Below are positions 8,701 to 61,900 of a stretch of 64,000 nucleotides of DNA, in pieces. The first letter of the stretch is position 1. Each line of letters opens with the position of its first letter. The stretch covers positions 9,379,122-9,443,121 of the forward strand of contig NC_087377.1 in assembly GCF_963675165.1 (NCBI RefSeq), read 5' to 3'. Below the pieces are notes generated by a model, which worked only from the letters and a program-made list of their open reading frames with translations, was not told where the DNA came from and made no database searches. Origin of the DNA: Halichondria panicea (taxonomy: Eukaryota; Porifera; Demospongiae; Suberitida; Halichondriidae). Made by a program: the position numbers and the translations under genes.

Positions 8701-11700
8701 GAAGGATTCGATACAGTGGATACCGATGTGGGGCTTTTAGAGCTAGATGGGAATCCAACTGTTGTGGCTGTTTGTGTGTCACCGGCATTTTTAGAACCTG
8801 GATCGAAAACTCTTCGTGTCGTTGTCACAAATAAGAATGGGACGGTGAAGTATGACATTGGCACTCGATTCTATGCAGGTACAAACAAAATGTCATGACT
8901 TGTAGCAATTATGTAGGCTATAATTATGTAGTAATTAAGTGCATATATAATTTACGTGAAGTGTTTTAGTTATGCATGTATAACCCTCGTCACCATACAT
9001 CCTTATCATTCTACATAATTATAATAAGTATAATAATTATGTTACACTGCATGCATGCATGTGGGGCTATTCATTTACAGTACACATTGAAGACAGTACT
9101 GAGGTACAGCACAATTTGAACACTCAAGTCGTTCTTCCTCAAACCGGAATCTTAATAACTTGGAATCCTTTTGATCTTCTTCCCTCTCATGCCGAAAACC
9201 CGTCCTTCTACACGGTCAATATCGTTCTTGTTGAGTTTGATATGAACACAGGAGAATGGGAAGATGTTGAGATACTAGCATCAGGTTTACCAAATATTGG
9301 GCAAGCAAAATTAATGTGGTAATCCCAATTCTCAGTGTGTGTACCAATAATAACATGGCTGTACGACCAATTGCAATTCAAGTTAGGATTGGAGAGTTTT
9401 CTGGAGATGTACAACGAAGAAGGCCGATTGTCCGGTTGTTGGTAAATAGAGTCACTCTGTGGACGCCAATTCTGTATTACATGAGTAGTAATGATCTCCG
9501 ATTAAGATGTGAAGCTTGGTGCAATGAGCAGCCCACAGATATCGGTAAAAACCTTCTTGATGAACTCCCCCCTTGTCCACCTAGGGTCACTCAAGCTAGG
9601 CTATTTAACAGTGGCTTTGTTGAGGATTCTGGAATAAATATCATTATAAACAGATACGTCTTTCACGTTGGATCGGAGACATGCTTCAGATCAAGAGAGG
9701 CAAGGTGGATGGATATTTTCAGTACCAGTTTTTTATATGGCAAAAACCATGCATGCAACTGCTTAGGAAAAGCAGGGTGGCTAACTAGTTAATGATGTTA
9801 CAGAGGAATTAGAGTGGTGTTTGCAACTTATTAATAATTATATATGGTCCTTTACTAAATATACACTATCATTATTATAGAGTACACTTTGTCACAACTA
9901 GTATTTTCTCTCCTATTATAGTCCCTCAGGTGCTGGACAGCAATGTTGTTATGAAAAAAGTGGAAACCTGTTGGTGGGTGCCCCAGGAGGAGGCTCAGTT
10001 GACAAAGTTTCCCCACAAAATTTTCTGGGCCATTTCCTAGAAGATGTCCTTCCTGCTTTTCTCTGCTGCTTTGGACCGCTTAGTAATTGTGATGCTTATT
10101 ATCAGAAGCGTCCTTCCGACAATGGAGAAGGATATAACCCACCCAATCCTGGTAAGTATAATCATAGATAAAGATCTAGAAATAACTTTTTCCTCCCTTG
10201 TACATGTATATATAGTGGTCCATATTGTTAGGTCTATAATTATTGTTAGATAGTGATGACTTAACGATGTATACAGTGTTTCCCATTATTATACGCAGCA
10301 TGTGTCTATGGAGATCCCCACATTGTGACTCTGGATGGATTTAAGTACACCTTTAACGGCAAGGGAGAGTACCTGATAGCTCAAGTGGATGACATCTTCT
10401 CATTTCAGGGACGAATGACCCAAGCTGTGAATCCTCAGGGAGACCCAGTTGGAGCTTCTGTCTTCTCCGCTGTTGCTATGAGCGACGGTTCTAGTATAAT
10501 CCAGTTTCAAATTGGTTTTTCCGATGACCCTGATGCTCTTATAAATGGAACATTTATCGATTTTACTGAAGTGTCTCTTCAACAGTTCAATGGAGTGGCT
10601 GTCGAAAAAGATGGAAATAAACTTTTTGCGAGATTCAATAGCGGAGCGTATATTGAAGTCAGAGAAGAGAATGGTTTCTTATCAATTCTGTTAGTGAGTT
10701 TTCCCATTTTATGGAAAGGACGAACCCAAGGGTTAATAGGAAACTACAATGGGGACACAGCTGATGACCTCACACCATGTACCGGGAATCCCCTTTCACT
10801 GGATGCGGACTTGAAGACCATCCATGAAATGTTTGGAGTCACGTGTGAGTATATTATAATGTAGCCACGAAAAAAATTATGATACTCTCTGCCCCCCCCC
10901 CCCAAATCTGGCATTAACTTTGTGTAGGTATAATATAGATCGTTATGCGGTTGAACTCAACGAAAATAGTACTACTTTTGTACTATTTTCGTTTGTTATT
11001 ATAATGTTACATGCAGGGAGTATTAACAGGCCACAAGACAGTCTTTTCACATATCCTGAGGGTGAGAGCTGGGCTAACTACACCTTCCCGAACTTTGAAC
11101 CGACATTCGAGGTAGTATTTTCTAATTCATCCTTAGAGCAGGAAGCAGATGACCTCTGTGGGGATGACTTTTTCTGTCGGTTTGATATAGCCACGACTGA
11201 AAACACCATGGTCGGACTCTTGACCCTGTATGTGATCCACCATGCCTCAACGGGGCTTGCATTGCCACAAATACCTGCAGCTGCTCCGTCAGCTACACTG
11301 GGGTCAGGTGTGACGCGTCCCTCGTGATGGATTGTGACGTTAGTCCATGTGAGAACAATGGAAGCTGTGCGTTACTAGCTGGATCCTACATTTGCACATG
11401 CCCCTTCAATTACAACGGAGTGAACTGTCAAAATCCAGGTATGTCAATATGGTATAGTCAGCTTCACAAGTTTTGCTGCACGCCTAGATCGGTAATTGTT
11501 CCTACGTATAGCCAAACGTTAAGCCACATCATAAAGTGCATGACCATACTAGCAAATTTCATTTAATGACGGATGTTTTGGGAAAATGTTCCACCATCTG
11601 GTCTGGTCGTCCTGGTCGCATTATCAGGGTTCATCTAGGATGAAAAGTTTTGGGGGGAAGGTTTGGGCGCGCGTAAGCGTACTAATAATGATGATGTTGT

Positions 11701-31600: not shown

Positions 31601-33395
31601 GTAGCTATACTGTGTATCAAATGTATGGGGAGAGTAACGTGACTTCTTGTATCTGCATTATCACTCTTGCAATATGCCAGATATTGGCTCAGTAGTAATT
31701 ATATATAGTGGGCCTCGACCACTATTATATATATTCATGCAATAACATATAATTTTTTGTAGTAACTATTATTATGTATTAATATATATACACATAGTAT
31801 ATTATAAGCTTATATTATATAACTGCCAGGTTCACCTTCCACTCCAACTGTTAACAGTATGGAATACTCTGTGGCCGATTCAAGTACCGGACGATCTACA
31901 TTCTTGGCCAGCAGTAGCGGGACCTTCGGGACAGCGGTCACTATTTCTGCCAGTGTGGTTGGAGGCAGTGGCTCAGTGGTTGTGACTGACAACATTATCA
32001 CTGTGACTGGATTAAGCTACACTGGCTCCCACGCAGTCAGAGTGGTGGCTGCCAGTACTATGTGTCCAAGACTGTTGAACAACACTAATGTTCCTGTGAT
32101 GTTCAACGTAAGATGTGAGTGGAATATCGTGCACACAGAGTTTGCATTTTCGCTTTACAACTGATAATTTTTCTCAGCCCTTGTACTGATTCAACCCACT
32201 GGATTCGTTGTGTGTTCGAATCCATCATTGCCAATCAGTGGATCATGGAGTATGATTAAAGGCGTAAGTGAATGATCTCGCATGAGTGTCATATTATGCG
32301 TATACACATCACAGGTTCAGAGCAGCAATAACCCAACAGTTCAGTTGACTCCTCCCCCAATTGGTAAACCGACCATAACCTTCACTTCTTCAGCAGGGGG
32401 TCTTAGTGGCAATGCAGTCTATATTCCTGATTCATCCTACCAGCTCACTGACACAGTGGAGAATGATGTGTACACTTTCACTGTAACCGTGACTAATGCG
32501 GCTGGACCCAGCAGGGAAATATCTGAAAGAGTTGTTGGTAAGCTCTTTATTTCTTTTGCTGTGATGAAAACCTCTATATGATACCCATCTTGCGTGTACA
32601 TGCACTGTATATAGTTACCCCGTTCATTGTTGATGAGAGTACACTGGAAACAATGGATTGCCTCACATGTTCTCTCGGTCAAAACTGTGTTTCTGAGCAA
32701 AGTGGAAACTTTGACATCCAGTTTGAAGAAGGATCTGGTGTATGTCGAGACTTGCTTCCATCAGATTTCAGCACATCCACCATACAACTGATGCCTCGGT
32801 CTGCTTGTGCACCCGTGGCTTCATCCACTAACCTGTGTTATCGTGCAACTCTGATGTATAATGGAATAGTAATCAGCACTTATGCTAATCGCGAATTTGC
32901 TGGGTGCCCCGTAAGTGTCTTTCCTTCTTTTCTGGCAGATGGTGTTTCCTACCAGCTTGATGGAGAAGTAACCACTGGCAACGTGTCTCACCTCACGACT
33001 GCTACTCTGAGCTGTACCGAAACTTTTACCTCTGTATCTGGAGCAGCTGTGGTGACATGTGTTGATGGTCAGTGGAACAACATGGGCATACGGTGGTGTT
33101 CTAGATCATTTGCAGGTAAACATTACAATGTTATAATTATATTATTATATAATTTTCAGAAACTACTGCCATATCTGTAATTGTGACTTTCCTGTTGACT
33201 CTGGTTCTTGGAGTATCCATTGGTGCATTTATTGTACCAGCAGTGAACAAGTGCAGGACGTCTGAGAAGGTAACTCTGCAAACTGAAACTGAAATGAGAC
33301 CACCACCTGTCGCAATATACGAGGACCCCGATGTCGTTAAACCTGACCCTCGTACTCAGGGGAATGCTGCTTATGGACATGTACAGTTCAGTTAG
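28628..33395 (+). CDS. Receptor R2: Ig/FN3/sushi-like receptor, single TM, short tyrosine tail
   Basis: Exons: 28628-28679 (leader; in-frame ATG at 28,637 gives MVTACSIILIPPYV), 28746-29117 (Ig), 31830-32114, 32178-32263 and 32315-32537 (FN3-like), 32615-33115 (sushi-like block at its end) and 33160-33395. All phases agree and there are no internal stops; about 581 aa. The Ig exon is almost the same as R1's. Unlike R1, R3 and R4 the last exon holds one membrane segment (AISVIVTFLLTLVLGVSIGA) and the whole tail, with IYEDP and AAYGHV tyrosines; the first pair is worn compared with R3/R4. The 2.7-kb intron after the Ig exon is full of transposon debris. An upstream exon carrying the true start is possible. 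Confidence 0.85.
29173..29349. mobile_element. Hairpin MITE family 4 copy in R2 intron
   Basis: Arms 'gcaatgtgaaaaattgctagga' and its inverse '...cctagcacattgtga' enclose 'agaaatccggcaagtgcataac'. Same family as the long hairpin at 42,743-43,247; separate half-arms flank the third adhesion-gene exon at about 7,485-7,560 and 7,978-8,070. Confidence 0.6.
29403..29704. mobile_element. TIR element in R2 intron
   Basis: Ends tagtctcgcaagac...gccttgcgagacta, with a longer inverted block containing 'ggtctggcaacagtgtgcatg'. About 300 bases, no open frame of note. Non-autonomous DNA element. Confidence 0.7.
29850..30000 (+). repeat. Copy of the 5' dispersed repeat
   Basis: Contains 'acccgaggcgc...gcggccacggg' followed by 'gtcgaataaaagtgagcaaa', the same order of blocks as at 735-935. 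It lies just upstream of the Ty3/gypsy remnant, so the family could be part of a long terminal repeat, but I cannot show that. Confidence 0.5.
30240..31217 (+). mobile_element. Ty3/gypsy integrase remnant in R2 intron
   Basis: Shifted + frames keep the integrase order: a HLGIDFIGP-like start (about 30,245), CDYFTKFV (about 30,317), FGLPIRVI (about 30,440), then LERFNQTIQTMLVKFVG and AYNTSKHESTKHSPFEVMF (30,680-30,830). A C-terminal tail region follows (KQKEQYDRQAR, WVGPYKI, VNGVHLKPYH; 30,960-31,215). Stops and shifts make it non-functional. No protease, reverse transcriptase or paired LTR is seen, so this is a fragment. Confidence 0.7.
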
Positions 33396-40586: not shown

Positions 40587-43500
40587 CTAATGAAACTGCA
40601 CGTGTCCATAAGCGAGGTTTCCCTGAGTGTGGGGGTCTGGTTTAATGTCCTCGTATACTGGTCCTCTCTGTTCAAGTGGAGCTTGTAATTGTTGAACATG
40701 GCTGTACGCAATGTTTTCTTGAGCCAGGGGGTCTAATATCTCTTCGTATATCACAGGTGGCGGTGAACTCATTTCAGTTCCAGTTAATTTCTCAGACCTC
40801 CTGCAATTATGCAAAGGCAATCATCACATGCTAACAAAAAAGTTATTGAATTACAATGCTTAAACAAGTATAGTCAAATGCGTGGGCAGGAATAATTATG
40901 GTCTAATCAGTAAGGCTTCTGTTGACAAACATGGAGATAAATAACAGTTGACTGTATACATTGAACACCACGCACAGGACAGTGAGAACACTCACAAGTA
41001 CTTAGTTAACCATAGATAGAGATTGAAAACAGAAGTGGTGCACGTGATCATTTAACATTAGTTCTACACAGAGGCCTCGAAAACTATCTCCTATTGTTTG
41101 CCGGGTAACTTGCTCGAAATAATTATGTTTCCTCGAGACATTATCCCCTCAGCAATTTATAACACACCTATTCTGTGAGCCATGTGTGGTACTAGCTAAT
41201 GACTGACCACACCCAGTAGACACGCTTCAAAGTGCTATTTAGGGTATTTATTGCTATAACGTGTAAGCGTGCAGGATAACTTCTGAAATAGGTATAGATC
41301 TTTAACTAACCAATCTGAACCTAGATCCCCATCTGGTATCTTGGGTAGCAAGCTACCTCAGGAATAGATCACAATATGTCATAATAAATGGAAAGTCATC
41401 AAAATTAATATCTCGGAGGTTGTGTCAGGAGTTCCCCAGGGTTCGGTGCTGGGACCTCTTCTTTTCCTAATCTATATAAATGACATCGATCTACATCAAA
41501 ATGAAGGAAGTCTCTTGCTCTATGCTGATGATCTTCTTCTTTACCATCCTATTCAATCTCCTGAAGATTATCTAAAATTGCAAGGAGATATTGATCAACT
41601 CCAAGCATGGTCTGAAAGAAATGTACTCTTGTTTAACCAAAGCAAGTGTAAATACATGACTATATCAAGAAAATTCAGCCCACCACTTCCCAACATGTGT
41701 CTCAATATCAGTGGACGTCCCCTACTTAAAGTTGACCACTACAAGTACCTTGGAGTGTGGATCTCTCACGACCTCTCATGGTCAAAACACATAGAAGGAA
41801 TGTGCAGAAATGCCTGCAAGCAGGTTGGTATAATTTACCGACAGTTCTATGGCCACTCGTCACTAGAATGTTTAAGACAACTCTACATCTCACTTGTGAG
41901 ATCAAAACTGGAATATGCTGCCCCTGTTTGGGATCCACACCAAAAAACAAATTCTCACAAAATAGAAAAAGTACAAAAGTTTGCCCTTAAAATCTGCACA
42001 AAACTTTGGAATAGGGACTACGACTCCCTATTAGATACTGTGGACCTACCGTCCCTTTCCACAAGAAGATTGTACCTGAAACTATCATACCTTTACCAGG
42101 TAATAAATGGGAACTTTAAATTCCCTGATCCACCACTGGAAAGAAGAGTATGCCCTCTCAATTTAAGAAGCACAAAAAATATACAGTTTGAAAGACCAAT
42201 TTGCAGAACAAATGCATATGCGAACTCTTTTTTCCCAAAAGCAATATCTGTATGGAATGAATTACCACTGGAGCTGCAGGAAAGTACATCGATTTTGTCA
42301 TTTAAGAGAAATGTACTCTGTCACTTGCATTAGTATAATATTAGTCTTTATTTTTAATTTGTACTCGCTATTGTAAATAATATTATATACAGGGCACACA
42401 TTAGGTTAGCATAATATGCTAACCGGCTGTGACATCGATCGGTACATGTATACACAAACAGTCCCTAGTCCTTTTCTCCAACTTCTCTCCATTCTCAACT
42501 CAGGTATGCTACTGGCTAGATCTACCATAGGCCTCCATGTTTTTGCACTTTGAAGTATACACTCTAGTATTTAACATGCATAGATAAATGAACACTGTAA
42601 TAAGAATTATTGGTTCAGTCTGCATGGCCTGTCTTCTCTTCTCTTCTTGAACTTCTCTTGCTTCTTGACATTCCTCTTAGGCATTTTACATTTCATTATT
42701 GAAGAGTATAAAAATACTGCTGTACTGAAAAAGAAAGGGAATCAAACTAAAAAAACATTTGCAATGTGAACGTTGCTAGGATTGCCAGGAAAAGAAAAGC
42801 GCGAAAAAGCGAAGAAACAAGAAATTCGGCGAGTGCATAACTCCAATCCGTTACAACGCCATGAACATGTACAGTCGAGTGGCCTACTGTTGATAATGAT
42901 TTTAGAATCAAAATACAAGTTGGGTAAAAAATGAACCCCGAATAACTGAATTCACAATCATCCACCCACACATCCAACACTTGCATGTTTGCTTAACACT
43001 GTAAGGGAAAACATCACAAACATTATATAGCTTGCAAAAAATTCACTATAATTATATGATAAAAATTTACTGAAGGATTGGCCAGGAAAAGCACAAAACG
43101 AAAAAAAATTGAAACAGTACATGTGAATGAAGTTGTAACGGATTGGAGTTATGCACTCGCCGAATTTCTTGTTTCTTCGCTTTTTCGCGCTTTTCTTTTC
43201 CTGGCAATCCTAGCAACGTTCACATTGCAAATGTTTTTTTTAGTTTGATGCTACTAGTGTATCCATGCATTTTGCAGAATTATTATAAATAAAAAAAATA
43301 AAAAAAATAAAAAAAAATAAAAAAAACTAGAAGTAAGCTGCACAGAATGAGCACATTTGCTAGTGATGTGCAGAAGTATGCATCAGCTTGGCTACCTCGC
43401 AAAGCCACTCTCATTACAGATAAGGCTGCTTAAGACAGCCTCAATTGAACCGCAGGTAAGAGCAGATGTTCATTCAAAGGTACTTTTGTTTCTAATGCCT

Positions 43501-46500
43501 TATCTCTGGCATAACAATCAATAAAGCTGATATAACAAGGCCACTGCAAATGAGACAGACCGTAGTTTCCCGCGGTGAATGTTTTTGTGGTTGTTATAAT
43601 TATGATGAAATCGAATGATATTCATGGTATTGAATAATGATCCAGCGAACACATACAATTCACAGAAGTCTCTAATTAAAGTATACACCCTCATTTGGAG
43701 TGCATGGCCTAACTATATAAATTATATTCAGGATGTCATACAGGATTTTAAAGTAGGGGGGGGGTCTAAAAGTTACCAGAAGATTTCAACTGAATATACC
43801 TTGTTAGCATAATATATAGCTGGCTATGCTCAGTACAGTAGCGGTAAAAAAAAAGTAACCGTTCCGTTTACGTAGTACGTCCGTAGTACGCTGGTACGTT
43901 GCAAAATAAACGCTAAAAGTACGCTCAAGCTACGCTACATACCGTTGTGTTTTTTCAACCGTTGTTAAATTTTTTCTTCGGCCACACCCATGCAGCTCTG
44001 CACGCAGCTAGCTAGCTAGAACTTTTGCAGCAGTTAGCTGTTAGCTAGCTAGCTAGCGTTTTCTAACCTTGAGATAGGACTCCATAGAGACTGCATCCTT
44101 TTTAATGAGAAAGTTAAAGAACCTGTGAATGGTGCGTTTTATGTCTTTGTTGTAGATCAAGAGCTAGACTTACAGCTAGACATGGCCATAGTATAGCTAA
44201 GTAACTAGTCTAGCTACGACAGTACTAGGATTGTCTTTTTGTTAGTTTTCTAAAACTTTTCTAAACGTACTTGCAACGTGCAACGGTAATTAGCAACAGT
44301 ACGGTAAATTCAACGCTTTTGATACGGTGTCAAAACGGAAACGCTTCGAACGTACTACGTAAACGGAACGGGTACTTTTTTTTACCGCTACTGTAGCAAA
44401 TTGGGGGGGGGGGTTTGAGCCAGCTTCCCCCTGTATGACATTACTCTGGCTATATTCAAGCACAGCACTATCCCCAGACAGGAATACAGAGAATCTGCAG
44501 TTCTGTATAATCAAAAAATGTTGCTCTAACAATTTGGTTGGTCAGACATGGGGGAAGAGTCTAGCTCAAGACTATAAAATCACGCACTGGTCTCAAGACT
44601 CCCTCTCACTAACTCACCCCTTTGGATCTTCATCTTCGACTGATCCTTCATACTTTTTCTTCTGAGTTTCTATAAGTATACAGTGAAGAGGATTATGATA
44701 AAATTGTAATATAGCAGCTTACCTCTCTGACTATAATTATATAGTTTACTAGGCGTAAATAAGATTATCTACCCTCACCCCTAAATTCTACCCTCTATAT
44801 ATGCACCCCTATAAGAACCAAAAACAAAATTCCTTAAGAGTTAAGCTAGAGTATTAGCTATGCAGACCAGCAATTGTATCAGTATACACAACGTACCTTT
44901 CTTGTTCTTCACACAGCAGTAGCCAATGAGAATACCAATTCCAAAGCCAAACACGATTATAAGAAGAATGACCAACAGTAGAGTGCCACACTTTCCTACA
45001 ATGAACATATACAAGTACATGCACCAATCTATAGGGTTGATTAACAATTGACTTACTTCGTCGAATTCCTTGTACACATATCCCACAAAAATGAGTGAGC
45101 AATATTCCCACAATAATTCCAATAGCAAAGGAGAGGACAACCGCACTTATACTGACAACTATAACCAAACTTGGATTGTCTGGTGGTATAACAAAATAAC
45201 CTGAGCGAAACACTCCCACCACCTTAAATAACAGTACTCCTTGGGTCAAGTAAATGGAATAACAATAAGTTAAATTAGGTTGTAGAGATGTCAAGATAAC
45301 TTCCAGAGTATCCCCAGCCATGCCGTTATTAGCTGACATCACAGTGTTGGCATCAGTGTTAGGCGTTATTCCGTAGGTCACTGTCAAACCGGTCGAGCCT
45401 CGGAAACCACTGGACAGATTAGCAGTCACATTAGCATTGGAGTCTATTACAACAACTGTCAGAGTCGCTAATGAAGATAATATATTGAATGGCACTGCAA
45501 AAAAATAGTCAGTAGTTAAACTGCATGGATGGACAATATGAAACTCACGCTGGGAGGATGTTATCACTGATTGACCACCTCCAATTCCATTGGACACGGT
45601 AATAGTCACAGTGAAATTATTGCTGGGAGGATTATCACTAGTGAAGTTAGTCAGGTACTGGCACAGGGTAGCATTGCAGTTGCCTGTGAGAACCATTTGC
45701 GGATCACTGACGATTCGTACAGAGTAAGTAACTGCAGGAGAAAAACCAGGAGCAACCTCGACAGGACTCTGCATGTGCATGGAAAAGTGTTTGTAACATA
45801 CCGACAAATGCAGAGACAATTGCTTACCACTGTTGGAAATGCGACCATGATAGAGTCGAGGCTGTCATCAGAATACACTGCCAGCACACTGACATCACCA
45901 GCAGCAGGGGGAGATGGTTCTATGGAGAAATGTGAGTTACAATGCCACACTCACCCTATAGCTCTCACTCACCCATTAAGTTTAGCATTACAAGAGTGCT
46001 GAAGCTTCCAGCCTGACCACCACACAAGTCAGAGTTGGCCCTGACCATAACTGAGCAGCTCTGTGGAGCAGTCCAACCAGAACAAACTCCTGACGTACTG
46101 GAACTGACTGAACAAGAGCCTCCACAATCTGAGACGACATCATATGAGAAGGAGGTTCCACAGTTCTGGTTGGCTCTGTCCAAGTTACAGTGAATGTGGA
46201 CACACCAACCTCTGTCACCGTCACGTTAGTGGGTGGTGGGGGTGGACCTGTGGGGGTTAAAGGTTTAGACTGTTGTCACACTGTGATGCTGTTTACCTGC
46301 TACTCGCAAGGAATCAGTGCCAATCATAGCAGTGATATCTCTTGTACACCCTATAGTTTGTCCATCCATGTTGGCACTGATAGTGACTGACAGTTCTGAT
46401 GTGTAGCAAGGTTCTGCTCCACTAGTGTCAACTGAAGTACCACTACCGATAATAGCTCCACTTGTACAATCTCCTACAGCAGTCCCTCCAGAGAATAGAG

Positions 46501-51035: not shown

Positions 51036-52493
51036 TTATACAATCTACTATAAAAATTAGATCGACAACAACAAATCCACAAAATTAAAATTTACACAAT
51101 TTGATATAACAAGAATATAAGGCAGTTTCAAGTTACTCTTGTGTAAGGCATCCTATAAATCACAGCCAACTGCGCTGCGACTGCATTGAGAATTTATAGA
51201 TGAATTATGTCTGAGCAGTTTAATAGACATGTTTCGATGCTGCTATGGGGATACAACACACAAACAGGGCTGGGGGCATAGATATATAAACACACGGCGG
51301 GCCTGGGGTGGAGTCCACTAGATCTAGCTTGATAGATCTAGTTCCATAAATTAACAAATGGGGACTTGTGAATTTGGGTGATTGCATATTACAGCCTATG
51401 CCATGTTCTACTGAATAGATCTAAAAACTGGCTAACCTTTAGCACATGCTGTTGTTTGGGATCAGAACAGTCTACTGGCAGTCTAAGAGTCGAGTTGCAG
51501 AGAAGAAGACTGCATTTGTGTGTGTGCGCACACATGGCAAGGGGAGGCTCTGGATCACATGATTAATTTTTCTGCAATGCAGTTGCAGCTGCTCTTCTAT
51601 TTCTTTTGAGATCAAGTCCTTAGAAAATTCTTCAGATCGTGCTGTCCTTTGCACTTTGAGCTCCAAAGGAGAGCAGAAGTCTCAAGTCATCAATACCAAA
51701 AGTAAGAGTGAACTACTGTAGACGTCTATATAGAGGGAAATTTTGCATCGATTTAAAGCGACCCTCCATTGGCCAAATATGCGACACCCTCGATCTTTTC
51801 CCATTTTCTGACCTCTAAAAGTAGTGTGCTGCATTGACAATTATTTTTTTATGTAACGTCCTAAATAGAGGTCAAACCATAGCCTTGATTCCAAGCCGTA
51901 AGAAACAATGTAATTTAAGTGGCCAAAAATCAAGGATAGTAGAGTAACCTACCTCCAATTAGATGCGACCCTCTAAATATGCGACACCAGGACTTCGGGT
52001 GGGTGTGGTTTCTTGGCATTGAAATGCAAATACAGTCTTATAATCACAGCGCCACTCTAATAGAAGCGCCAAGTTCACAAAATAATTTTAATTTTATTCC
52101 AATTAAACACCAAGTAAATTCTGGAATTATTTTTTGCTGGGGTATGATTTCTGCTCTCACTTTGTAAGAATGTATAGACTGCATGGGGGACGATAGAACA
52201 ACTTGATGTATTTTACATGTACATGCATGTATGCATGCAGCGACTGCTCAATAGTTCTATTCATAGTGATGATCATCTTTGCCATCATTCTGTGCTACTG
52301 GGACAAAACAAGAAGTAAGTGATTTTTTCTCACTTCTAGGTTGTGTGGAATTACAGAACTGAAAGTATCATCATGAAATTGAATTTGTTTATGCTGACTC
52401 AGAACATTCTTGTGTACCCAATGTTTACATAGCTAAATCTCACATCAATAATCTTCTACAACTGAGACAAGCACCTTGTGATCTACTGGAAGA

Positions 52494-55400
52494 ATGAGGA
52501 TTGTACCTTCATATGTAAGAGATGTAACAAAAGCTCTGTGTTAAGTTTTGTTTTCTCCCAGATTTTCTTGGTTGTGTTGAACCTTCACCAAAAAGGCACA
52601 AGTAAGTTAATTACTAACTGGTAAAAGTCCAGAAGCAAGGTACATATAATAGTTTAAATCAGTTGTGATGCAGATGCTGTGAGCAGTTTAGCAGTCAGTA
52701 GCGGTGGTGGCACTGTGATTGATGGGGCCCTCCAATTGTGTCCAGGCACTACCGTCAGCCTCACCTGTTCTCATGACAGCACTAGCGATCTGACTCGTTG
52801 GGAAATTGGTGCTCCCATAGAGTGTACTGCCATTGCTCCCCACACTACCAACCCAAGCATTGCTCTGTGTGGAAATTCAACCATTAATATGGTCAGTGCT
52901 ATGAATCAACCCACAAGGATGTCTACTCTTATATTGGCAGTCACTGAGTCACTGAATGGTACTGTGGTGACTTGTTATGCTGGTGGTTCTACATCTGATC
53001 CTCAAGCTGGGAACTTAACTATACAAGTTATTGGTGAGATACTATTCTATCGTATAGCGAGTAATTTTCGTGTACATTATCAGGAGTACATTAAGGATAG
53101 TAAGCAACTACTATACACCGTATAGCGGGTATATTTCGAGGGTATAAACCCCGGACAGAGTCAGACAACAATGGGTTTGTATGGGCTGTATAGTAGTTGC
53201 TTACTCTCCTTCATGTGCTGCTGATACCATAATTATAGTGCTCAAGAACCCTCAGAAGAAATTTTCACGTTTGTTGTGTGTAATTGTAATTATTATATGC
53301 GTTTTAATGCTACTCACCAACAGCTTTTTGGAGTTTCTCCTAGTTTTAATTTTTTTCGTTAACTGCCCTCGAAAAAATTGTGACATTTTGCACCTCACAA
53401 ACATTTCCTGCTATACTCGTACACGAAATGGTGCATCAAACGGAATCAGTAATACTTCCTTTTGTCACCCAGGTCCTCCTTCCACTCCAACTGTTGACAG
53501 TATGGAATATTCAGTGGGCGACTCAACTACCGGACGATTCAGACTCTTGGTCAGCAGTAGCGGAAGGTTTAGGACAGAGGTCGCTATTTCTGCCGGTGTG
53601 GTTGGAGGCAGTGGCACAGTGGAAGTGACCGACAACAACATCACTGTGACTGGATTAAGCTACACTGGGTCTCACACTGTCAGTGTAGTGGCTACCAGTG
53701 CTGTGTGTCCAGGAGTGCTGAACAGCATCACTGTCGTTCCTGTGGTGTTCAACATAGCATGTGAGTGGAACACCAAAGTTGATATTTTTTAATTTATAAT
53801 TAATACTTTTTCTCAGCCCTTGTACTGACTCAACCCACTGGATCCGTTGTCTGTTCCAATCCGTCATTGCCAATCAGTGGGTCATGGAGTGCGATGGAGG
53901 GAGTAAGTGAATGATTACTTACATGAAATAGTAGAACTGTCTAATTATTCATAAATTATATACGTCACATGCAGGTGCAGACCAGCTTTGACCCAGCAGT
54001 TCAGTTGACTCCTCCCCCAATTGATACACCGATCATAACCTACACTTTAGCCGGGCGTAATGACAGTGCAGTATTTGTTCCTGATTCATCCTACATGTAC
54101 CAGCTCTCAGGGATGAACACAGTGGAGAATGATGTGTACACTTTCACTGTGACTGTGACTAATGCAGCTGGACCCAGCAGTCAAGTATCTGAAGGAGTTG
54201 TTGGTAAGCTTTAAAAATCTTGTGATGAGAACTTCTGTTATGTTAACTGTATATACTCTACCCTGTAGTTACTCCATTTGTTGTTGATGAGAGTACGCTG
54301 GAAACAATGAATTGCCTCACCTTCTCTCTCGGTCAAAACTGTGCTTCTGAGCCAAGTGGGAACTTCATCGTTCGGTTTGAACAAGGAAATGGTGTTTGTC
54401 GAGACTTGGTTCTGTCAGATTTCAGCATATCCACCATACAACTGATGCCTCGGTCGGCTTGTGCACCCGTGGCTTCATCCACTAACCTTTGTTATCGTGC
54501 AACTCTGATGTATAATGGGATAATAATTGATACTCAGACTAATCTCAACTTTAACACATGCCCTGTGAGTGCCCTCTCGTCAGTCATGGGCAGTGGAGTG
54601 TCTATGCAGCTGGACGGGGAAGTTACTAATGGCACTGTGTCTCACATCACCACTGCTACTCTGAGCTGCACCTCGGCTATCTATGATTTGATTGGTTTAC
54701 CTCAAATCACATGCATTGATGGAACTTGGGAAACAGATGGATTGAGATCATGCACATGTAAGTTGCATGTATTAATCTTAGCGCTAGAACAGTCTATTTT
54801 TTGGTAGCTCTAATTGTGTGCCTCCAAGCTATTTATTGCTGCAATTTGAATGTGCCCATTACTCTAAATGAAGCACCACCTAAAGCTACCGTATAGCGTG
54901 TAATTTTCGTGGGGCAAAATATTCGTGGTTTTCGTGGTTGGAGGTCTGACCACGAATATTTTACCCACGAATGAAACGACCTTGCCTACCTTTACCTGCA
55001 AGTGCAAACAGCAACCACGAAAATATTACCCACGAAATATCTCAATATTGCTGAACCACAAATATTTTGTCCCCCGAAAATTACCCGCTATACGGTATAG
55101 GTATAACATAATACATGTGTGTATAAAAACCCTGTTTTATTTGTGATGGCACCTTTATTATTACGGATCATTGAGCATTGTACATGTATTTACACTTTTC
55201 TGCAGTGGCTGTTTGGCTGATTGTGGTGATTATTCTTATAATACTGGCACTAGCTTGTGCAATTGGAATTGTCTGTGGATTACTAACAGCTCGATGCCTG
55301 CCCTCTCTTCTCAACGGACTTGTAGAAAGTAAGTGAATTTAAATTTATAGTTCGGAACTATAACTCTCATATTTATTTTCAGAGAAATGTTGGGCAACTT

Positions 55401-55843
55401 TGGTGATTATTCTCCTTGTCTTCTTGTTCTGTTTTGGTGTCGGGGTGCTCTTTTACATTTGTTGCTGTAAACAAGGTAAAAAGAACAGTTTTTGCTCCTA
55501 GGTAGTAGGAGGTGGATGCTTACAAACGATATTGTATCACTGATGCATGCTGACATGTGCATGCTTATGCATGTACTTCCTTTTGAAACATCATGCACTG
55601 TAAACGTACAATCATATAGATTACAAATCGAAGTCGGACACAGTTCCCGCTGAAACAGGACTCAGTCTGCCAGTTACGATATACGAAGAACTAGAAGACA
55701 TACCAGACCCCCACACTCAGCGCAACCTCATTTATGACCGTGTTCAACAGTCAGCTGACCCAAGAAGACCAATATACGAGGACATTAAACCAGACCCCCA
55801 CACTCAGGGGAACGTTGCTTATGGACATGTGCAATTCAATTAG
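52494..55843 (+). CDS. Receptor R4: complete Ig/FN3/sushi-like receptor with two TM exons and four-tyrosine tail
   Basis: Ten exons join without a lesion: 52494-52514, 52562-52601, 52674-53033, 53473-53760, 53817-53902, 53975-54203, 54269-54757, 55206-55328, 55383-55475 and 55620-55843; 650 aa. Signal peptide MRIVPSYIFLVVLNL; Ig-like domain at 21-140 (LTCSHDS...VVTCYAGG); FN3-like segments 141-341; a 163-residue exon with a C-terminal sushi-like block (LSCTSA...ITCIDGTW...C). Hydrophobic segments follow in exon 8 (VWLIVVIILIILALACAIGI) and exon 9 (TLVIILLVFLFCFGVGVLFY, then CCCK). Exons 8 (123 bases) and 9 (93 bases) are both symmetric phase 1. Tail tyrosines: IYEEL, LIYDRV, IYEDI and VAYGHV. 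The ectodomain is R1-like, the tail R3-like. Best-supported full model in the cluster. Ligand and partners unknown; a cell-surface receptor signalling through SH2 proteins is inferred. Confidence 0.9.
54887..55097. mobile_element. MITE family 3 copy in R4 intron
   Basis: Ends TACCGTATAGCGTGTAATTT and the inverse ...ACCCGCTATACGGTA. It lies just upstream of the first membrane exon of R4 and is close to identical in reverse to 34,946-35,156. Confidence 0.8.
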
Positions 55844-58950: not shown

Positions 58951-61900
58951 CTAATGAAACTGCACGTGTCCATAAGCGAGGTTTCCCTGAGTGTGGGGGT
59001 CTGGTTTAATGTCCTCGTATACTGGTCCTCTCCGTTCAAGTGGAGCTTGTAATTGTTGAACATGGCTGTACGCAATGTTTTCTTGAGCCAGGGAGTCTAA
59101 TATCTCTTCGTATATCACAGGTGGCGGTGAACTCATTTCAGTTCCAGTTAATTTCTCAGACCTCCTGCAATTATGCAAAGGCAATCATCACATGCTAACA
59201 AAAAGTTGTTGAATTACAATGCTTAAACAAGTATAGTCAAATGCGTGGGCAGGAATATGGTCTAATCAGTAAGGCTTCTGTTGACAAACATGGAGATAAA
59301 TAACAGCTGACTGTATACATTGAACACCACACACAGGACAGTGAGGACACTCACAAGTACTTAGTTAACCATAGATAAAGGAAGAGAGAGATTGAAAACA
59401 GAAGTGGTGCACGTGATTATTTACCATTAGTTCTACACAGAGGCCCCGAAAACTATCTCCTATTGTTTGCCGGGTAACTTGCTCGAAATAATTATGTTTC
59501 CTCGAGACATCATCCCCTCAGCAATTTATAACACACCTATTCTGTGAGCCATGTCTGGTACTAGCTAATGACTGACCACACCCAGTAGACATGCTTCAAA
59601 GTGGGTATTTTATTGCTATAACGTGCAAGCGTGCAGGATAACTTCTGAAATAGGTATAGATCTTTAACTAGAAGTAAGCTGCACAGAATGAGCACATTTG
59701 CTAGTGATGTGCAGAAGTATGCATCAGCTTGGCTACCTCGCAAAGCCACTCTCATTACAGATAAGGCTGCTTAAGACAGCCTCAATTGAACCGCAGGGAA
59801 GAGCAGATGTTCATTCAAGGGTACTTTTGTTTCTAATGCCTTATCTCTGGCATAACAATCAATAAAGCTGATATAACAAGGTCACTGCAAATGATACAGA
59901 CCGTAGTTTCCCGCCGTGAATGTTTTTGTGGTTGTTATATGAAATTCATCGATGAATCGAATGATATTCATGGTATTGAATAATGATCCAGCGAACACAT
60001 ACAATTCACAGAAGTCTCTGATTAAAGTATAAACCCTCATTCGAGTGCATGGCCTAACTATATAAATTATATTCAGGGTGTCATACAGGATTTTAAAGTA
60101 GGGGGGGGGGGTCTAAAAGTTATCAGAAGATTTCAACTGTATTTTCAATATACCTTGTGAGCATAATATATAGCTGGCTATGCTCAGTACAGTAGCGGGA
60201 AAAAAAAGTACCCGTTCCGTTTACGTAGTACGTCCTTAGTACGCTGGTACGTTGCAAAATAAACGCTAAAAGTATGCTCAAGCTACGCTACATACCGTTG
60301 TGTTTTTTTAACCGTTGTTAAATTTTCCTTCGGCCACACCCATGCAGCTCTGCACGCAGCTTGCTAGCTAGAACTTTTGCAGCAGTTAGCTGTTAGATAT
60401 TATAGCTAGCTAGCTAGCGTTTTCTAACCTTGAGATAAAACTTCATAGAGACTGCATCCTTTTTGATGAGAAAGTTAAAGAACCTGTGAATGGTGCGTTT
60501 TATGTCTTTGTTGTAGATCTAGAGCTAGACTACAGCTAGACATAGCCATAGTATAGCTAAGTAACTAGTCTAACTACGACAGTACTAGGATTGTCTTTTT
60601 GTTCGTTTTCTAAAACTTTTCTAAAACGTACTCGCAACGTGCAACGGTAATTAGCAACGGTACGGTAAATTCAACGCTTTTGATACGGTGTCAAAACGGA
60701 AACGCTTCGAACGTACTACGTAAACGGAACGGGTACTTTTTTTTACCGCTACTGTAGCAAATTGGGGGGGGGGGGGGGTTTGAGCCAGCTTCCCCCTGTA
60801 TGACACTACTCTGGCTATATTCAAGCACAGCACTATCCCCAGACAGGAATACAGAGAATCTGCAGTTCTGTATAACCAGAAAAATGTGGCTCTAACAATT
60901 TGGTTGGTCAGACATGGGGGAAGAGTCTGGCTCAAGACTATAAAATCATGCACTGGTCTCAAGACTCACTCTCACTAACTCACCCCTTTGGATCTTCATC
61001 TTCGACTGATCTTCATACTTTTTCTTCTGAGTTTCTATAAGTATACAGTGAAGAGGATTATGATAAAATCGTAATATAGCAGCTTACCTCTCTGACTATA
61101 TATAGTTTACTAGGCGTAAATAAGATTATCTACCCTCACCCCTAAATTCTACCCTCTATGCACCCCTATAAGAACCAAAAACAAAATTCCTTAAGAGTTA
61201 AGCTAGAGTATTAGCTATGCAGACAAGCAATTGTGTCAGTATACACAACGTACCTTTCTTGTTCTTCACACAGCAGTAGCCAATGAGAATACCAATTCCA
61301 AAGCCAAACACGATTATAAGAAGAATGACCAACAGTAGAGTGCCACACTTTCCTACAATGAACATATACAAATACATACACCAATCTATAGGGTTGATTA
61401 ACAATTGACTTACTTCGTCGAATTCCTTGTACACATATCCCACAAAAATGAGTGAGCAATATTCCCACAATAATTCCAATAGCAAAGGAGAGGACAACCG
61501 CACTTATACTGACAACTATAACCAAACTTGGATTGTCTGGTGGTATAACAAAATCACCTGAGCGGAACATTCCCACCACCTTAAATAATAGTTCTCCTTG
61601 GTTGAAGTACATGTAAATGGAATAACAATAAGTTGAGTTAGGTTGTAGAGATGTCAGGACAACTTTCAGAGTATCCCCAGCCATGCCATTATTAGCTGAC
61701 ATCACAGTGTTGGCATCACAGTTAGGCGTTATTCCGTACGTCACTGTCAAACCGGTCGAGCCTTGGAAACCACTGGACAGATGAGCTGACACATTTAGCA
61801 TTCGAATCTATTACAACAACTGTCAGAGTCACTAGTGAAGAGATAGCGATTGGCACTGCAAAAAAATACTCAGTAGTTAAACTGCATGGATGAACAATAT

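Follow-up and report, generated by a model that had tools for sequence, protein, structure and literature searches.

Paired transmembrane exons ahead of the tyrosine-motif tails of a sponge receptor family, and a possible splicing switch of topology

The stretch of Halichondria panicea DNA analysed here (the window; 64,000 nucleotides, positions 9379122-9443121 of contig C1) carries the genes R1 to R5. Judged from sequence, they belong to a tandem multigene cluster and would encode signal-peptide (type I-like) receptors whose ectodomains are Ig-, FN3- and sushi-like and whose tyrosine tails are SH2-type. Two hydrophobic segments, transmembrane (TM) segments TM1 and TM2, follow one another ahead of the tail in R1, R3, R4 and R5. 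With such a pair, either one exon must sometimes be omitted, or one segment must not cross the membrane, or the tail must lie outside the cell. The puzzle is family-wide, since TM2 is paired with TM1 in every copy found, TM2 and the tail are both constrained, and 13 sister genes carry the same tails behind a single span. A splicing switch, with TM1 obligatory and TM2 optional, would be the leading reading, which we hold tentatively and with less than even confidence; an optional TM2 fits best because TM2 and the tail, both constrained, need not share one molecule.

We propose that TM1 would be the obligatory anchor and TM2 an optional exon. Omission of TM2 would give a one-span receptor with a cytosolic tail. 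With TM2 included, the protein would be a hairpin with two spans and an external tail, a form that would be non-signalling and could serve as a decoy or dominant negative. We infer the existence of both transcript forms, their topology and the function of each. The wider claim, that TM2 is a conserved topology switch in which an exon of 31-33 residues would flip the tail outside and turn receptors into decoys that are silent at the cell surface, is more doubtful still; it would apply to as many as 12 genes, all in one cluster and divided between two subfamilies. If TM2 is optional, the side of the tail, and hence signalling, would be set by one splice choice, a form of control seldom considered for type I immune receptors. 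A constitutive TM2 would mean that the proteins depart from the usual topology rule yet keep a constrained tail.

Transmembrane pairs, tails and selection

An earlier note on this DNA had described two adjoining TM exons in R4 and R1, and their coordinates, lengths and phases (1-1) check out in the spliced models. R4 is spliced from 10 exons with GT-AG introns into an open frame of 650 residues. R1 is open over 684 residues and 12 exons so far, with one GC donor and a 3' end beyond the exons read, and R2 yields 574 residues from 7 exons, the first of which is uncertain. The R1 and R4 models have a signal peptide, two strong hydrophobic segments 17 residues apart, and then a tail with putatively phosphorylatable tyrosine motifs (YEEL, YDRV, YEDI and YGHV in R4; YAMV and YAVV in R1). 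The signal peptides claimed for R1 (MRLVHICIFLVLLLGLYQKETD), R3 (MRAKIVVTCLILLGTLLIKSG) and R4 (Table 1) were recognized by eye in the spliced translations. Topology was judged from hydrophobicity and charges. The best 19-residue Kyte-Doolittle means are 3.52 (TM1) and 3.01 (TM2) in R4 and 3.38 and 2.85 in R1, which bears out the claim of two real spans; the single hydrophobic segment of R2 reaches 2.63. Residues after TM1 (Arg) and after TM2 (Cys-Cys with Lys/Arg) look cytosolic, as they might for alternative type I stops. The inter-span loop (3 basic and 1 acidic residues in both R4 and R1) and the 15 residues past TM2 (3 basic and 2 acidic in R4, 5 and 2 in R1) are both net basic, and therefore the charge rule does not decide.

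The host assembly (131 Mb, 39 contigs) was searched for further copies, and all counts of TM and tail exons from this search are lower bounds. At least seven copies of TM1 and at least seven of TM2 were found for the R4-type subfamily, and the same numbers for the R3-type. TM2 lies directly behind a TM1 in all 14 copies found, 12 of which are readable pairs: R4, R1, A9608, A9652, A9471 and A9588 (R4-type), and R3, R5, B9104, B9241, B9614 and B9011 (R3-type). The remaining two, A10035 and the C13 copy, are decayed. For A9471, A9588 and the B genes, the reading covered part of the exons upstream. In A9608 and A9652 the sushi-like exons are broken, and A9652 has lost the usual TM1 acceptor, with an alternative in-frame acceptor 9 nt upstream. 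The intron between TM1 and TM2 measures 43-67 nt in 12/12 copies, and the introns flanking the pair in the six R4-type genes measure 55-448 and 113-419 nt. TM2 is clearly homologous between the two subfamilies (z 9.3), TM1 weakly so (z 2.4). Origin of TM2 by tandem exon duplication of TM1 was considered and is not established, as within-gene composition shuffles gave z 1.9-2.6 and DNA identity was at chance in 12/12 pairs. The span of the one-TM relatives could not be clearly assigned to TM1 or TM2 in 35 comparisons.

A tail-exon match is present downstream of all 12 readable pairs, on the same strand. It is of the R1-type in R1, A9471, A9588, B9104 and B9241, and of the R4-type in R4, A9608, A9652, R3, R5, B9614 and B9011; in the last four it lies 2-4 kb away and was assigned by order. 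Similar tails occur behind one span. R2 had been put forward as such a one-span relative, and it is now one of 13 genes, as against 12 two-span genes, with these two tail types. The R1-type tail gave 15 matches, made up of 11 good copies, a weak one at A10035 and three matches to the second tail exon; five good copies stand behind a TM pair and six behind an apparently single TM. Other hydrophobic stretches do occur between TM and tail in these six genes; in a scan for phase 1-1 hydrophobic exons with plausible splice sites, one TM region passed in 6/6. As a control, the scan recovered both TM exons of R1 and B9104, and TM2 alone in A9588, where TM1 has a GC donor, so that the scan can miss exons.

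The R4-type tail gave at least 37 matches, for eight of which up to about 1 kb upstream was read. A clear single TM was seen in L086 and L087, of which L086 alone passes the exon scan. L081, L083 and L085 have another hydrophobic stretch 166-218 nt upstream of the tail, L080 and L084 a weak stretch some 700 nt upstream and nothing stronger, and L082 has no hydrophobic stretch in the up to about 1 kb read. TM and tail are joined in one exon in R2 and in four R2-like genes (L005, L008, L009 and L013). An odd number of spans, which predicts a cytosolic tail, is seen in R2, in 12 further genes over the sequence read, and in the R4 model with TM2 skipped; it is not seen in the full-length R1 and R4 models, with their two strong segments. 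With all exons constantly in use and all spans crossing the membrane, homologous tails would lie on opposite sides of it. As a separate observation, the at least 37 R4-type matches and 11 good R1-type tails form a large receptor cluster at 8.6-10.9 Mb of C1, in which ectodomains, TM exons and tails appear in shuffled combinations.

Pooled ratios of non-synonymous to synonymous differences (pN/pS) in the R4-type genes are 0.55 for TM1 and 0.33 for TM2 (6 genes, 15 pairs, including A9608 and A9652) and 0.39 for the sushi-like exon (5 genes). The corresponding R3-type values are 0.99 and 0.20 (6 genes, 15 pairs), with 0.65 for the FN3-like exon (4 genes). Pooled gene pairs are not independent, and hence Fisher tests were made on disjoint pairs. 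Three pairings of R4, R1, A9471 and A9588 gave p = 2.9e-5, 0.0063 and 0.00037 for TM2 and p = 0.019, 0.18 and 0.029 for TM1; two R3-type pairings, which include the frameshifted R3, gave p = 0.011 and 0.010 for TM2 and p = 0.18 and 0.55 for TM1. In the two-span genes, pN/pS is 0.18 for the first R1-type tail exon (R1, A9471, A9588, B9104 and B9241) and 0.13 for the second (4 genes; not found in A9471). The first exon of the one-span genes, a less diverged set (pS 0.086 vs 0.221), gave 0.69. Three tyrosines of this exon are kept in 11/11 genes, five two-span and six one-span. These values show purifying selection on TM2 in both subfamilies, at least as strong as on TM1, and on the tail too. Selection on TM2 shows that it is translated and no mere leftover; TM2 and the tail are both translated and constrained, though not necessarily in one molecule. 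TM1 of the R3-type genes evolves equally fast at amino-acid and silent sites, and the adjoining TM2, with 96% DNA identity, is almost frozen.

Splice junctions and competing explanations

The claim that TM2 can be skipped in frame holds and can be sharpened, while skipping of TM1 is not its equivalent. The last base of exon 7 in the R4-type genes is T and the first two of the TM2 exon are AG or AA, so that the TM1-skipped junction is a stop codon in 6/6 (TAG in five, TAA in one). The TM2-skipped junction is an Asn codon, AAT or AAC, in 6/6, and the frame is kept. It follows that TM2 skipping is the sole simple exon choice that would give one span with the tail inside in R4-type genes. The stop need not have been selected, being explained by an ancestral arrangement together with a conserved Lys codon, and it is not universal: skipping TM1 in B9104 would leave an open junction (C/GA, Arg, by eye). 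Skipping both TM exons of R4 also keeps the frame, and the product would be soluble. The symmetry of the TM exons had also been pointed out. The phases are as described, but with 7/9 introns of R4 and 7/11 of R1 in phase 1, which is ordinary in these genes, TM exon symmetry says little.

Other features of the locus bear on whether TM2 is optional. G at +5 is missing from the TM2 donor in 6/6 R4-type genes, as against 0/8 of the other donors in R4, 1/11 in R1 and 1/6 in R2. We rejected this weak donor as a sign of optional use, since 5/6 TM donors of the one-span genes with R1-type tails, where the TM exon is the sole anchor, also lack it. It seems to go with being the last TM exon, and our confidence in the switch was lowered slightly for this reason. 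In favour of an optional exon, the first 60 nt past TM2 of the R3-type genes are conserved at a mean of 63% and the next 60 at 29%; this may stem from gene conversion, as TM2 itself is nearly identical in DNA. Against it, the R4-type TM2 flanks are not conserved (46% and 37%). Pairing of intron 8 with intron 9, which would loop out exon 9, gave no consistent signal in the four genes compared (z 1.7, -2.4, 0.4 and -1.1). The tiny intron 8 favours its own removal as a unit, and TM2 accompanies TM1 in all 14 copies found, as a functional hairpin would. Finally, a survey of the sponge Amphimedon found skipped exons to be rare, at 1.8% of alternative splicing events as against 45% for intron retention (PMC4432959).

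The main rival to the switch is a constitutive pair in which one segment fully crosses the membrane, and TM2 or the TM1-TM2 unit is an embedded hairpin or re-entrant structure, so that the tail is always cytosolic. We regard it as a serious possibility, albeit rather unlikely. It would account for the constant company of TM1 and TM2 in two subfamilies, for the better conservation of TM2, with its Gly-rich core (GVGV-like, GIGILIG-like), for the strong selection on the tail and for the cytosolic-looking residues past TM2, and it agrees with the rarity of exon skipping in Amphimedon (PMC4432959). However, TM2 of R4 has the hydrophobicity of an ordinary span (3.01) with no Pro or charge inside, and its summed biological-scale score is -4.49.

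Given a cleaved signal peptide, the exon order is most simply read as a protein that always spans the membrane twice and keeps its tail outside for good. This is nevertheless improbable, as purifying selection preserves the tail tyrosines of the two-span genes, with a pN/pS well below that of the less diverged one-span set. N-glycosylation sequons number 0 in 78 (R4) and 114 (R1) tail residues, a count that is not significant alone.

To much the same low degree we credit regulated intron retention, rather than exon skipping, in which intron 8 or intron 9 would be kept to give tail-less receptors. With intron 8 retained, the R4-type genes encode TM1, Ser-Lys and a stop in 6/6 (translated for R4), the stop lying within the donor stretch A/GTAAGTGA or A/GCAAGTGA; with intron 9 retained, two spans are followed by a stop within about 20 codons (by eye). 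Retention is also the main splicing mode in Amphimedon (45%; PMC4432959). Chance stops soon after donors are common, though, the R3-type genes are without a stop at that place, and retention alone leaves unexplained how the tail gets inside while TM2 is kept.

That the TM pair is a relic in decaying genes is very improbable: frameshifts in R3 and probably R5, the broken sushi-like exons of A9608 and A9652, and the decayed A10035 and C13 copies would suit it, but no break interrupts R1 or R4 over the length read, and TM2 and the tail are under selection. We give least credence to TM exons that exclude one another in the manner of exon 17 of Drosophila Dscam1, for which two adjoining phase 1-1 TM exons, the weak within-gene TM1-TM2 similarity (z 1.9-2.6) and the open junction in B9104 could be cited; the junction stop in 6/6 R4-type genes rules out such either/or use there as a simple exon choice, TM1 is not skippable as an exon in R3 and R5, and homology of TM1 and TM2 is not established, their DNA identity being at chance in 12/12.

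Features of the window and related systems

Table 1. Receptor gene features in the window (window positions; descending ranges read on the minus strand)
Feature	Position	Strand	Basis or remark
R4 exons 1-2, signal peptide MRIVPSYIFLVVLNLHQKGTN	52494-52514, 52562-52601	+	spliced translation, by eye
R4 exons 3-7, ectodomain, named Ig-like, FN3-like and sushi-like; last base of exon 7 is T, phase 1	52674-54757	+	weak profile support
R4 exon 8, TM1 AVWLIVVIILIILALACAIGIVCGLL, 123 nt, phase 1-1	55206-55328	+	
R4 intron 8, 54 nt; retention would give Ser-Lys, then stop	55329-55382	+	
R4 exon 9, TM2 WATLVIILLVFLFCFGVGVLFYIC, 93 nt, phase 1-1, donor gtaaaa	55383-55475	+	
R4 exon 10, tyrosine tail (YEEL, YDRV, YEDI, YGHV), then stop	55620-55843	+	
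R1 TM1 exon	24507-24385	-	
R1 TM2 exon; a 45-nt intron separates TM1 and TM2	24339-24247	-	
R1 tail exons (YADP, YAMV, YQDP, YAVV)	24133-24091, 24031-23869, 23711-23589	-	
R3 TM1, joined to the FN3-like exon before it	45057-45177	-	start approximate
R3 TM2 exon, 99 nt	44995-44897	-	
R4-type tail exon match of R3, some 4 kb past TM2	40590-40745 (C1:9419711-9419866)	-	assigned by strand and order
R5 TM2 exon, 99 nt	61352-61254	-	
R4-type tail exon match of R5, some 2 kb past TM2	58954-59109 (C1:9438075-9438230)	-	assigned by strand and order
Last exon of R2, with both its single TM and its tail; tail end homologous to that of R4	33160-33395	+	

Ectodomain names (Ig, FN3, sushi) are based on weak profile matches and sequence reading. 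The Pfam fn3 profile gave E 0.032 in R4 and E 0.00048 in an R3 exon frame. The Sushi profile matched 4/11 relatives of exon 7 (best E 0.0013), with none in R4 itself, and gave E 0.014 in R2; all these values are below the curated cut-offs. A Pfam search of R1, R2 and R4 gave no Ig match.

As the earlier note had it, R3 and R5 have TM2 alone on its exon and TM1 at the end of the preceding one (layout read by eye). This fusion looks derived, because in the other four R3-type copies (B9104, B9241, B9614 and B9011) TM1 apparently has its own exon and acceptor (by eye). A donor-like GT is still present inside the coding frame of the fused TM1/FN3-like exon of R3 and R5, which suggests that a deletion took out an exon between the FN3-like exon and TM1. 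Both genes may be pseudogenes or contain assembly errors, because R3 has a 1-nt frameshift in its FN3-like exon (45973-46247, minus strand, 275 nt) and R5 an apparent one near 61795 (minus strand, from open reading frames (ORFs)).

GC donors occur on an R1 tail exon (23869/23868, minus strand, CAG/gcacgt) and on the TM1 exon of A9588 (locus L003, AAA/gcaagt). A reverse transcriptase ORF (41368-42333, plus strand; RVT_1, E 4.9e-15) lies between the R3 TM2 exon and the R3 tail match, and intron 7 of R4 contains an inverted-repeat-like element at 54896-55100 with TACGGTATA-like ends (by eye). Just upstream of R4 is an isolated TM-like open stretch (52248-52313, plus strand, SIVLFIVMIIFAIILCYWDKTR). 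It was rejected as part of R4, as it has no good relative elsewhere in the window and 52494-52514 with 52562-52601 fit better as start exons. A von Willebrand type D domain exon (10265-10864, plus strand, E 3.5e-14) belongs to a separate gene, probably at about 5.6-12.6 kb (from ORFs).

Outside the host genome, a pattern search of a prokaryote contig set gave 13 matching stretches, none confirmed as relatives, and a PDB search gave one match (E 0.021), taken as chance. Among the titles listed in a literature search, none deals with this receptor family, which is not proof of absence.

The genes look like receptors of the general fester/FcoR/Dscam1 kind, and their cluster resembles allorecognition loci. 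Fester of Botryllus schlosseri (fuhc locus) has a signal peptide, Ig and sushi domains, three TMs and a tail, and alternative splicing is reported for it (PMC12065747). Fester and uncle fester share with the present genes, as compared by description, a signal peptide, Ig and sushi regions (here Ig-like and sushi-like by weak profile support), more than one TM, a tail and location in a gene cluster. They differ in their three TMs, an odd number that places the tail inside, and in having no known signalling domain, whereas here two TMs precede tyrosine motifs. Botryllus FcoR proteins form a large family with a signal peptide, Ig and sushi domains, a TM and a long tail carrying ITIM, hemITAM or Y-x-x-I/L/V motifs (PMC12065747). 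The present genes resemble them in layout, with Ig-like and sushi-like regions, a tyrosine-motif tail and a large family. FcoR has one TM, and the passages compared mention no TM pair, in contrast to the two of R1 and R4.

Drosophila Dscam1 is an Ig/FN3 receptor gene with two TM exons, which are alternatives at exon 17 (PMC1397879), and so resembles the present genes with their Ig-like and FN3-like regions. The Dscam1 exons are mutually exclusive, whereas the TM2-only form of the R4-type hits a stop. For the proposed switch, in which TM2 would be optional, human PTHR delta-e14 offers a precedent for a tail changing sides with TM number: in-frame skipping of a TM exon changes the TM parity and places the C-terminus outside, with a dominant-negative effect (PMC3179322). 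PTHR is a seven-span receptor, and there skipping throws the tail out, whereas here skipping would bring it in.

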